Source of the DNA: Alphaproteobacteria bacterium | GTDB taxonomy: Bacteria; Pseudomonadota; Alphaproteobacteria; JAAEOK01 | Assembly: GCA_024244705.1 (NCBI GenBank) | Contig: JAAEOK010000033.1 | Location: 84,534 to 148,533, forward strand | DNA length: 64,000 bases | Reading direction: 5' to 3' | Shown: positions 18,201 to 21,697 of the stretch, piece by piece | How positions within the stretch are numbered: the stretch's first letter is position 1 | Layout of the letters: each line of letters opens with the position of its first letter | The notes under the pieces: model-generated | Databases searched by the model: none | Told to the model about the DNA's origin: nothing | The model's input: only the letters and a program-made list of their open reading frames with translations | Position numbers and translations under genes: made by a program

Positions 18201-18208
18201 AACGTCGC
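18201..18208. repeat. target-site duplication, left copy
   Basis: AACGTCGC directly outside the left terminal repeat; the same 8 bases occur at 21690-21697 outside the right one. Confidence 0.93.
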
Positions 18209-18228
18209 GGTAGTGTCTCAGTTTGAAA
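18209..18228 (+). repeat. left terminal inverted repeat
   Basis: GGTAGTGTCTCAGTTTGAAA, exact inverted copy of 21670-21689. The transposase stop codon (18218-18220) lies inside this repeat. Confidence 0.95.
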
Positions 18229-19099
18229 TATTTTTCTTGTAAGAACTTGTCCGTCCCGGTCTCGGCGCGCGCGCGTCGATCAAGCCCACAACCCATTCCA
18301 TATCGCGCAAGGTATCGGTGACGCCAGTGGCCATCGCCGGACTGACTTTGTGCGCCTTGTGAATACGGCAGAAATTGTACCAGACGAAATACAGCGCCAG
18401 CGCGTGGCAATGGTTCTCGACCTTCTTTGAAAACGCATTGGTCAACCGCGTGAACCGGCGCATGGACATCCGCATGGTGAGATTGTGGCGCTCTACATGC
18501 GACGTGCTCACGTCCTTGGGATCGGGCTTACCTTCAACGGGTTGCTTCTTCGCGCCGATGCACTCAGCTGGGCTGTAACGGCCCTTGGCGCTCTCAGGCG
18601 CGGCACCGTAGAGCTTCACCAACTGCGCATAGTCAATGTCCGCACCGAAAGCACCTTCAACCGCTTCCAGGTACGCCTTGTGGCCGTCCATGGTTAACTG
18701 CACGCGATTAGCCAGCCGGTCGCGCAAATCGTCCATAAGCTCCATTGCGTACTGAGAGTCGCGGCCGCCGACCATCCAAGACAGGATCATCTTGCTTTCA
18801 TTGTCTAGCGCCGCCCACGTCCATACGTCGCCAGCATAAAAGGGAGCGGCCTTGGCCTTCGCCACGTTCTTTTGCTTGGCGTAGGTGAACGACCAGATTT
18901 CGTCGCACTGGACCTTGCGGGCCTTCACATCGTGAACATGCTCATCGTGATAGGCCGCACATGCTTTGCCGGCGTCCACTAGCAACTTCGTGACGGTATT
19001 GATTGATACCCCTGCCACGCGGGAGACAGATCGCATGGACAAGCCCTCGACCAGCATGGAAAGGATTTGGACTCGCTTCTCTAGGGGCAATTTGTTCAT
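18218..19099 (-). CDS. IS1-family-like DDE transposase
   Basis: 293-residue transposase. The N-terminal helix-turn-helix ([20 protein letters not shown], residues 21-40) is followed by the catalytic core with a DDE triad: Asp66 (QCDEIWSF), Asp138 ([10 protein letters not shown]) and Glu203 ([11 protein letters not shown]). The C-terminal [30 protein letters not shown] is characteristic of the long single-frame IS1-type group; no frameshift is needed, unlike classical InsAB'. ATG at 19099 (MNKLPLEKR) matches the usual start of this group; a TTG 13 codons upstream is possible. All catalytic residues are intact, so it is probably active. Confidence 0.9.
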
Positions 19100-19148
19100 G
19101 CCCCTAATATATGCACTTATATGCTTATCGTCAAGCAACTATTTCATA

Positions 19149-19613
19149 TCAGAAAGGCACGTCATCATCGGATTCGCAATTATTTGGGCTACCAAAACCC
19201 GATGGCGGCTCATTCTCTGGTTCTTCAACCTCGAAATGTTCAAGTTCAATTAATCCGTATGTGTTGGGCGCGGGTCGTGTAAAAACCTCGTGGCGACGCA
19301 CATATGCTGCCAACGACCCGGTTAGTGATGCTTTCGTTTCGCGAGTTAAGTCCTTTCCCAAGCGCCGCAGAAGATCATCAATATGAACCGGAATGCCCGC
19401 CTCCATAATGGCGTCCCGAGCCTGCGCAGCCATGCTCCCCTTCCGCAACGGCGTGTTATCCTCGGCAGCGTCCGGATTTTCTTTCTCCACAGCTCGCTGA
19501 ATGTCTTTCAAAGCCTGGAGATATACTTTCGCAGCATCGAGCTTGCGCTCAAGCGTTTGAACTTCCACCTCTTTTCGTTTGATCTTGGTTTCGATAATTG
19601 ATCGCTCTGACAT
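19149..19613 (-). CDS. transposon cargo: coiled-coil / winged-helix protein with SSB-like C-terminal tip
   Basis: 154 residues, not assignable to a named family with certainty. Residues 1-46 are a charged heptad-like coiled coil. Residues 61-123 (AAQARDAIMEAGIPVHIDDLL...GSLAAYVRRHEVFTRPAPNTYGLIEL) look like a HARE-HTH-type winged helix. Residues 124-154 are acidic and disordered and end in ESDDDVPF. The last six residues closely copy the DDDIPF tip by which single-stranded DNA-binding protein recruits its partners. An AGGGAG ribosome site lies 9 bases before the ATG. It is divergent from dinD across 67 bp and followed by the transposase on the same strand, 49 bp downstream. Role inferred, not demonstrated. 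Confidence 0.75.
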   Translation of the reverse strand: MSERSIIETKIKRKEVEVQTLERKLDAAKVYLQALKDIQRAVEKENPDAAEDNTPLRKGSMAAQARDAIMEAGIPVHIDDLLRRLGKDLTRETKASLTGSLAAYVRRHEVFTRPAPNTYGLIELEHFEVEEPENEPPSGFGSPNNCESDDDVPF

Positions 19614-19680
19614 GGCATAGACTCCCTTATGCGATGCATGGTATAACTTTCATCACATGCAGCGCAAGGAACTATACAAA

Positions 19681-20535
19681 ATGAAGGATGACCTACCCAG
19701 CGATCCGCGATACCGCAACACAATGAACCGCCTGGAAGCCGCAAAGAGGACTGCGGAGAACGGTGCAGATTATTGGTTTGCACGAGAAATACAGGGCATT
19801 CTCGGGTATGTAGAATTTAGAAATTTTGAAGGTGTGATGGAGCGGGCTCGGACCTCAATGAGTTCAAACGGCATTGAGCCGTCGCATCATCTTGTTGAAA
19901 CCACCAGGATGATGAAAATTGGAAAGGGGGCCAAGCGTAAGGATCGCGACTTTTTTCTCTCACGCGCAGCCTGTTATCTCATTGCAATGAATGGTGAGCC
20001 ATCAAAACCCGAGATTGCTGCCGCCCAGGCCTATTTCGCCATTCAGACCAGAGCCCGCGAGATCGAGCAAGCCCAATCCGAGGACGAAAAGCGCCTTGAA
20101 GAGCGAGATAAGGTTACCGAGTCGTTTAAAGCGGTCAGCAGCGCGGCAAAAGAGGCGGGTGTAACAGGGGCGAAGCAAAGACTATTCCACAACGCTCGAT
20201 ACGAGGGCCTATACAGGCTGACATCCAGACAATATCGCAACGAAAAGGGTTTCGGTGCGGACGAAAACGCCTTTGATCGTATGGGAGTTCTTGAGTTGTC
20301 AGCGAATGACTTTCAAATGAACCTGGCGGCTGAAACGATCCAAAAGGAAATCATCGAGGGTGAGGTTACGGCAATTAGAAAAAACAAAGAAATTGCTATG
20401 CGGGTCCGGAGAACGATGATCAATAGCGGCTCTGTTCCGCCCGAACAGCTTCCCCTTGCCGAACCAATCAAAGAAGTGCGCAAACGCATCAAGGCCTCGA
20501 AGAAAGCTAACCCTCGTTTGCCCAACGCTTCTTAG
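19681..20535 (+). CDS. dinD: transposon cargo: DinD family protein
   Basis: 284 residues, matching DNA-damage-inducible protein D along its length. The N-terminal part has YWFAREIQGILGYVEFRNFEGVMERA, then MMKIGKGAKRKDRDFFLSRAACYLIAMNGEPSKPEIAAAQAYFAIQTR. The C-terminal half contains FHNARYEGLYRLT, MGVLELSANDFQMNLA and VRRTMINSGSVPPEQLP. E. coli DinD is SOS-induced and acts against RecA filaments. ATG at 19681 is chosen because AAGGA lies 7 bases upstream; an in-frame ATG at 19657 has no ribosome site. No alphaproteobacterial LexA box (GTTC-N7-GTTC) was seen upstream. The 3' end overlaps the convergent KGG-type gene by 29 bases. Confidence 0.88.
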   Translation: MKDDLPSDPRYRNTMNRLEAAKRTAENGADYWFAREIQGILGYVEFRNFEGVMERARTSMSSNGIEPSHHLVETTRMMKIGKGAKRKDRDFFLSRAACYLIAMNGEPSKPEIAAAQAYFAIQTRAREIEQAQSEDEKRLEERDKVTESFKAVSSAAKEAGVTGAKQRLFHNARYEGLYRLTSRQYRNEKGFGADENAFDRMGVLELSANDFQMNLAAETIQKEIIEGEVTAIRKNKEIAMRVRRTMINSGSVPPEQLPLAEPIKEVRKRIKASKKANPRLPNAS

Positions 20536-20743
20536 CAGCCTTCCGAGCGATCTCAGATCTCCGCTCGTCGGTTAACTTTTCGGCGCGCGCCTTTCCGCCC
20601 TTTCGCCCAAGCTCGACAGCGGCCTTGTTTTTGCCGTCGTCGGTTAGCTCGTCTTCTTCCTCGCCAGTCGCGATCTTGGCAACCTTGATGGCGTTGCCGA
20701 TCACGTCTGCGGGGCGCTTCTGTCCTTGGGGGCCTTTAGGCAT
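20507..20743 (-). CDS. transposon cargo: small KGG-motif basic protein
   Basis: 78-residue basic protein starting MPKGPQGQKRPADVIGNAIKVAKIATGE and ending in GRKGGKARAEKLTDERRSEIARKAAKKRW. The GRKGGKAR pattern resembles the KGG repeat of stress proteins. Very similar short proteins are common on plasmids and islands under vague names such as RNA-binding protein, with no proven function. Its ATG lies inside the end of the upstream 63-residue gene (8-base overlap), indicating coupling and supporting this start. Convergent overlap with dinD. Confidence 0.7.
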   Translation of the reverse strand: MPKGPQGQKRPADVIGNAIKVAKIATGEEEDELTDDGKNKAAVELGRKGGKARAEKLTDERRSEIARKAAKKRWANEG

Positions 20744-20927
20744 ATCGAGTGAGCCCATAGTCAGCAATCAGCTTATCAACTTTGCGAAGTTCCGCTAGCA
20801 ACCCTTTAACCTCAATATGACGACCAGCGTTGCGGGCCTCGTTAAGACACTTCGCAAATTCATCGCGCATGCGCAGCACGGCCTTGGCATGTTCCTCAGG
20901 GCTGGGTACGCGTGTCTTAGTCTGCAT
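20736..20927 (-). CDS. transposon cargo: 63-residue hypothetical protein
   Basis: Starts MQTKTRVPSPEEHAKAVLRMRDEFAKCLNEARNAGRH and is predicted to be mostly helical and charged. The ATG at 20927 has GGAGAA five bases upstream, which decides against the upstream in-frame start at 20957. It overlaps the next gene by 8 bases, forming a two-gene unit with the KGG-type protein. No family recognised; the size and coupling recall toxin-antitoxin or plasmid-maintenance pairs, but nothing in the sequence proves this. Confidence 0.6.
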   Translation of the reverse strand: MQTKTRVPSPEEHAKAVLRMRDEFAKCLNEARNAGRHIEVKGLLAELRKVDKLIADYGLTRYA

Positions 20928-21070
20928 GATTTCTCCAATGCTTACCGCTAAGTACATAACACATAGATAACTGGTTTCTTAGGGAAAAATCAATCTATTG
21001 CGATTTCCCGCCTTCAACGCCATATTTAGGTCACGGAATAACAATAGAAACCAACCGGAAGGAGGCCACT

Positions 21071-21103
21071 ATGACCACTTTTCGAGAAGGTTGGGGCGGC
21101 TAA
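21071..21103 (+). CDS. 10-codon leader or severed N-terminus before the DUF4760-like gene
   Basis: MTTFREGWGG followed by TAA, with an excellent ribosome binding site (GGAAGGAGG ending 5 bases before the ATG). It is in the same frame as the downstream gene, separated only by the TAA and two codons. Either it is a leader peptide coupling translation to the GTG at 21110, or it is the original N-terminus of that protein cut off by a nonsense mutation. Confidence 0.55.
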   Translation: MTTFREGWGG

Positions 21104-21109
21104 TTTGCT

Positions 21110-21649
21110 GTGGCTCCAGAACCGCAGGACTTAGTTGTCCATTGCCAATGCGCTACAGAGTATGGCCCCTGGATCACCGCAGGGGCCATACTTATTTCTG
21201 CCTCAGTTGCCGCGTGTGCTGCCATTGGCTCCATTCGCGAGCAACGGAAAATTGCCAAGAAACGAGCCACACTCGATCTACTGAGCCGGAAGGAATGGGA
21301 TTCGGATTACATTGAGGCTAGAAAAGTCTTTCTTGGCTTGAGAGACGAAGACCCGGGCTTAGTTGAATGGGCCAAACCTGAACATCGCAAGACACCTCAA
21401 GTAACTAATATTAAAAACACCCTAAACGATTACGAACTAATCGCCATAGGCATAAAAGAAAACATATTAGATGAGGAACTATACAAACGTTGGTTCAGGT
21501 CATCTTTTCTAAAAGATTGGCATAAATCCCGCGATTTCATAGTAACACTGCGCGAACGAGATGGAGTGCCGACATTATTTTGTGAGTTTGAGTGGCTTGC
21601 TAAGAAGTGGGGCGCTGAGCCACAGGGCAATCTCCCGCTAAAACGCTGA
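21110..21649 (+). CDS. transposon cargo: DUF4760-like membrane protein, possibly 5'-interrupted
   Basis: 179 residues from a GTG start. One membrane helix (WITAGAILISASVAACAAIGSI, about residues 21-42) is followed by a cytoplasmic part with RATLDLLSRKEWDSDYIEARKVF and LNDYELIAIGIKENILDEELYKRWFRSSFLKDW, the pattern of DUF4760 proteins (function unknown). The GTG has no good ribosome site; the strong one belongs to the in-frame ten-codon segment at 21071. The native product may therefore be 13 residues longer in relatives. AT-rich codon use marks it as foreign. Last gene before the right end of the element. Confidence 0.65.
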   Translation: MAPEPQDLVVHCQCATEYGPWITAGAILISASVAACAAIGSIREQRKIAKKRATLDLLSRKEWDSDYIEARKVFLGLRDEDPGLVEWAKPEHRKTPQVTNIKNTLNDYELIAIGIKENILDEELYKRWFRSSFLKDWHKSRDFIVTLRERDGVPTLFCEFEWLAKKWGAEPQGNLPLKR

Positions 21650-21669
21650 GCGCAGTCAACCCCGCCCAT

Positions 21670-21689
21670 TTTCAAACTGAGACACTACC
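21670..21689 (-). repeat. right terminal inverted repeat
   Basis: Exact reverse complement of the left end over 20 bases; identity stops at base 21 (A versus T). It lies 20 bp after the stop of the DUF4760-like gene. Confidence 0.95.
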
Positions 21690-21697
21690 AACGTCGC
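21690..21697. repeat. target-site duplication, right copy
   Basis: AACGTCGC directly outside the right terminal repeat; partner of 18201-18208. Confidence 0.93.

Follow-up and report, generated by a model that had tools for sequence, protein, structure and literature searches.

At single-stranded DNA, bacteria organize replication and repair around a hub, the six-residue tip of SSB, and the C-terminal peptide of SSB serves as docking site not only for RecO but also for further SSB partners. For RecO, docking on the last nine residues of SSB is described in PMC7913777, and DinD of E. coli is listed in PMC4457935 (citing Uranga 2011) among regulators that target the RecA nucleoprotein filament. 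HARE-HTH domains (PF05066) occur as modules in defence systems, where they are proposed to discriminate modified DNA (PMC10853773), and a mobile-element regulator that engages recombination proteins is known in the SaPI2 repressor Stl2 (PMC11846896), which we use as an analogy of mechanism only and with no claim of homology. Here, we show using pattern and profile searches, structure prediction, phylogeny and comparison of gene neighbourhoods that P0001, a small protein encoded in a 64,000-nucleotide stretch of alphaproteobacterial DNA (the window), is one of a hitherto unnamed family of DinD partners, in which the pairing with dinD, the domain architecture, the tail motifs and the intergenic words are conserved. 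DinD itself is known; the two-gene module with an SSB-like tip is a new variant of the DinD module, and no description of the partner–dinD pair was found in the literature searched, which took in few subscription papers.

P0001 (154 aa; 42 homologues) is encoded at 19149..19613 on the minus strand, and translation of this reading frame ends in ...NNCESDDDVPF. Translation, family alignment and tip count all mark the last six residues, DDDVPF (residues 149-154; 19152..19169, minus strand), as an SSB-like tip at the extreme C-terminus. The host genome has a single SSB gene, whose product ends in DDLDDDIPF. As in SSB, the acidic residues and the final hydrophobic-Pro-Phe follow a disordered linker. 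Unlike SSB, however, P0001 has no match to the SSB profile (PF00436) and carries its tip on a predicted coiled coil and winged helix without an OB fold; the tip is moreover optional in the family, and partner binding by it is putative.

A structure model from the single sequence was poor and was dropped in favour of an AlphaFold2 model based on 39 homologue sequences (mean pLDDT 86.7). The latter contains a helix at residues 3-45 that forms the coiled coil (19479..19607, minus strand), a HARE-type winged helix at residues 61-121 (19251..19433, minus strand) that ends in the family signature FxRxxPNT[FY]GL, and a low-confidence tail at residues 122-154. The best Foldseek matches are winged-helix domains, including Z-alpha (probability 1.00, target TM up to 0.85), and the HARE-HTH profile matches 22 of 39 family members (best E 3.9e-08), although not P0001 itself. 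The order of coiled coil, HARE-type winged helix and disordered tail is constant across the homologues, which are probably dimeric. In contrast to HARE-HTH domains as such, the family adds a coiled coil at the N-terminus and a tail that bears motifs, and distant HARE-like homologues end at the fold and have neither tail, tip nor DinD. A preliminary description of the window, made from its letters and reading frames, had given the same coordinates, the ending ESDDDVPF and a coiled coil with winged helix, all of which hold, the fold with the support of AlphaFold2 and Foldseek.

Direct searches with P0001 returned no true relative in its own genome, in 96 and 385 further genomes of the class, or among plasmids and phages, nor did exact 8-mers of P0001 in viral and genome contigs. 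Five weak matches from the class (L002-L006; E 0.001-0.007, partial alignments at 30-41% identity) were attributed to chance, L003 and L004 after inspection. The family was instead found via a degenerate DNA pattern for the winged-helix motif FxRxxPNT[FY]G[LF]. All 7 stretches with this pattern in viral contigs are true homologues; the 74 in genome contigs comprise 34 members of the family proper, 9 distant HARE-like proteins whose chain stops with the fold or shortly after it, and a remainder of chance or doubtful matches. With one extra homologue from a later alignment search (L208), the total comes to 42, spread over Alphaproteobacteria, other Pseudomonadota, Acidobacteriota, Verrucomicrobiota, single cases elsewhere and contigs of viral collections. 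Because this motif is part of the winged helix and not of the tail, the search did not favour the tip, and tip counts are unbiased by the query.

We defined the strict tip as [DE][DE]...hydrophobic-Pro-Phe/Trp/Tyr at the last residue. It is present in 19 of the 41 alignment rows tested, P0001 among them, where shuffling of these tails would yield 0.0105, which excludes chance for the family; with L208 added and the cut row L116 left out, 19 of 41 homologues with a complete C-terminus have it, in addition to P0001. The forms found (DDDVPF, DDEIPF, DEEIPF, EEDVPF, DDDIPW, DDDAPF) make up an SSB-like repertoire. Where present, the tip forms the extreme C-terminus without exception; the tails that carry it, 15-66 residues long, vary in linker length and sequence and defy alignment apart from the tip, while the coiled coil and winged helix are conserved. 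The loci collected by that stage contain 7,587 ORFs with a length of at least 80 aa, and 22 of these carry the tip: 18 of the family, 2 SSBs and 2 from one viral contig. The latter two non-SSB ORFs (L047, 2402-2722 and 8172-8663, plus strand) end in EDEIPY and DDDLVPF and are other possible bearers of an SSB tip. Mapped on the family tree, the presence of the tip implies about 10 changes, and well-supported branches force at least 5 of these, so that the tip has been recurrently gained or lost; the nearest relatives of P0001 are L152, ending in GDDIPF, and L173, ending in DDDIPR. The resemblance to SSB that the preliminary description had noted, and its expectation of a conserved end behind a varying linker, are thus borne out among the tip-bearing homologues. 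It had also held that homologues without the tip would speak against the idea, and about half of the family indeed lacks it while the other half keeps it at the very end; the tip is therefore optional and not universal. Could it simply be an acidic tail that folds onto the protein's own winged helix, unrelated to SSB partners? The tails are acidic and disordered, and degenerate endings exist (DDEIDF in L177, DEEDSPF in L164, DDDIPR in L173), but generic acidity would not need the hydrophobic-Pro-Phe/Trp kept at the very end, and shuffled acidic tails almost never yield it, so that we consider self-inhibition of this kind improbable.

The neighbour of P0001 across a gap of 43 bp is a dinD gene (19657..20535, plus strand), encoding a Bro-N domain protein, DNA-damage-inducible protein D. 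Its product scores marginally above the curated NF008573 equivalog cut-off (243.4 bits against 242; 243 in a second search) and matches the phage-defence candidate PDC-S13 of PADLOC (E 3.5e-85). Besides the window, dinD is directly divergent from the partner gene in 35 of 41 homologue loci; extension of the two loci cut at their edge (L173 and L159) raises this to 37 of 41, and inclusion of L208 to 38 of 42. Four loci lack the pair: L110 and L187, which form the two longest branches of the tree, L116, in whose genome DinD was not found, and L181, a fragment of 35 aa. None of the 40 other loci from the same pattern scans has dinD. Distances between DinDs and between their partners co-vary (Mantel r 0.66, 0 of 2000 permutations). 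In the class, DinD is present in 16 of 385 genomes sampled, and among these DinD loci only that of the window has the partner, with no other tip-bearing neighbour in them; as other DinDs of the class lack the partner, the two-gene module is a distinct and rare version of DinD. In the genome of L173, the dinD gene next to the DDDIPR-ending homologue has one in-frame TGA (L215), and the pair there looks like a decaying copy in which both genes degenerate together.

Near-obligate pairing with dinD, and a tip peptide nearly identical to that of SSB, would both be accounted for if DinD itself had a pocket for the SSB tip: the partner's tip would hold DinD in the manner of an antitoxin until SSB on excess single-stranded DNA displaces it, which would explain why a dinD partner copies SSB. 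This is the main rival to the reading that we prefer (see below), yet we regard it as unlikely, since 19 of 36 DinD-paired members have no tip and most DinDs of the class stand alone. Of the hallmarks of toxin–antitoxin systems, only a divergent, autoregulation-like gene layout was observed.

The tails hold a second motif. In P0001 it reads PPSGFG (residues 136-141; 19191..19208, minus strand), and a PPxxFG-like motif is found in 34 of 36 DinD-paired tails against 0 of 2 unpaired complete tails (Fisher p 0.0085, with few independent events). The SSB-like tip is present in only 17 of the same 36 paired tails, which indicates that it is not essential to the module. With PPxxFG near-universal and the tip in about half of the tails, we tentatively assign the former to contact with DinD and the latter to outside partners. 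The divergent intergenic region (19614..19656) contains an operator-like motif. Of 11 loci in the window's clade, 10 have a CATCACATA-type word with at most 1 mismatch upstream of the partner gene (no more than 3 in shuffles); of 12 loci that are mostly acidobacterial, 9 have a TTTCCATCT-type word there (no more than 4 in shuffles). Shared descent inflates these counts, although the proteins of these loci share only about half of their residues. Conserved operator-like words next to the gene for a winged-helix protein suggest that the partner autoregulates the divergent pair.

What might a partner of DinD do with the tip of SSB? We give a probability of roughly 45% to the reading that P0001 is a DinD partner that regulates itself and, through its optional tip, docks on SSB-binding proteins and so controls DinD at single-stranded DNA; tip binding and the function of the module we infer from the sequences described above. 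The winged helix would bind the divergent promoter, leaving the pair autoregulated, the PPxxFG motif would contact, hold or guide DinD, and the tip, where present, may occupy the SSB-tip pocket of host RecO, RecG, PriA, ExoI and the like. The partner would thereby compete with, or ride on, the SSB interactome at single-stranded DNA, where it could restrain or deliver DinD, a protein whose relative in E. coli acts as a modulator of RecA filaments. As DinD acts on the RecA filament in E. coli, both genes point to the RecA/SSB axis, and our data suggest that partner and DinD form a previously undescribed control module for recombination. The proposal in the preliminary description that P0001 blocks or modulates recombination is plausible and is strengthened by the link to DinD. 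A more tentative version, possible but short of even odds, sees a horizontally mobile pair of genes whose winged-helix regulator, imitating the SSB tail, senses or captures the SSB interactome and thereby switches DinD on or off, as a recombination or anti-phage switch triggered by single-stranded DNA. Repeated possession of an SSB tip by a non-SSB family that is nearly always encoded with DinD would connect dinD, an SOS gene that is poorly understood, with the SSB interactome and place DinD in a context open to testing, and it would also show mobile modules recruiting the SSB hub by mimicry. The tip-less relatives are natural controls, and the last two residues offer a ready test site.

By analogy with Stl2, which engages phage recombinases (PMC11846896), the tip might also act as a bait or dominant-negative, sequestering SSB-binding recombination mediators of host or phage and so blocking recombination or derepressing dinD during phage infection. 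The match of DinD to PDC-S13 would fit such a role, as would the type III restriction or SNF2/HKD-type defence genes that adjoin some homologue loci. Such neighbours, however, are confined to a minority of loci and many others are housekeeping genes, so that a defence-island context applies to a minority only, and we hold the bait to be rather improbable.

Finally, the pair in the window is carried by a transposon. P0001 lies inside a 3,481-bp IS1-type element, single-copy in the host genome, with perfect 20-bp terminal inverted repeats: the left one, GGTAGTGTCTCAGTTTGAAA (18209..18228, plus strand), is 100% complementary to the right one (21670..21689, minus strand), and these are the only two copies in the genome. 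The element is flanked by identical 8-bp target-site duplications, AACGTCGC, at 18201..18208 and 21690..21697. It encodes the transposase, P0001, DinD, two small ORFs and a further cargo protein with a DUF4760 domain (21110..21649, plus strand; PF15956, E 2.9e-39). The transposase (18218..19138, minus strand; likely start an ATG near 19099) matches PF03400 with 32.5 bits (cut-off 24.1) and is 61-67% identical to IS1 transposases of alphaproteobacterial plasmids; its match to NF033558 (E 1.4e-20) stays under the cut-off, which marks a divergent IS1 branch. With a DDE transposase, terminal inverted repeats and an 8-bp duplication the element is thus of the IS1 family, and the preliminary description was right to call P0001 transposon cargo. 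Its suggestion that the tip could guide transposition to replication forks is not supported. The partner gene does lie just upstream of the transposase gene and in the same direction in the window, L120, L159 and L162, and in three cases (the window, L120 with CGTCGCCG and L162 with CAACGGCG) the pair sits in an element with both ends and an 8-bp duplication. But such a transposase is near at most 6 of 41 homologue loci, most pairs sit outside transposons while nearly all homologues are paired with dinD, and the transposon-borne homologue of L162 has no tip, which argues that the tip is not a transposition feature. Among 26 elements of the transposon family examined, moreover, only that of the window has a P0001-type gene. 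Fork targeting, or any role as transposition accessory, is therefore very improbable; under our preferred reading, in which the partner controls DinD, the transposon would be one vehicle of the two-gene module and not its purpose.

The transposon family resembles IS1 cargo transposons and differs from them in its diverse swap-in cargo and in a small basic protein encoded by all elements examined. Its members measure 1.4-4.3 kb, have repeats of the type GGTAGTGTC... and mostly 8-bp duplications, and carry XRE/IrrE (M78), P63C, DinD or other genes; besides the window (18209-21689) they were found in L011-L014, L017, L018, L037, L041, L044, L045, L052, L055, L056, L058, L062, L063, L066, L067, L069, L075, L076, L078, L087, L101 and L103. 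The small basic KGG/RWKK protein (20507..20767, minus strand, in the window) is present in 26 of 26 elements, which suggests that it is the constant second gene of the transposon; its sequence has the form MPKGPxGQKRPADVIG...KGG...RWKK, and it is annotated as 'histone H1' in Mesorhizobium. Three cargo proteins that resemble a coiled coil with winged helix (L037:2035-2619, L045:5441-5983 and L069:1131-1589) were rejected as members of the P0001 family, as they do not match the family profile and their disordered tails lack the SSB tip. L030, L060, L077 and L086 contain MITE-like elements of about 0.4 kb that share the inverted repeats of the family and retain a remnant of the transposase.
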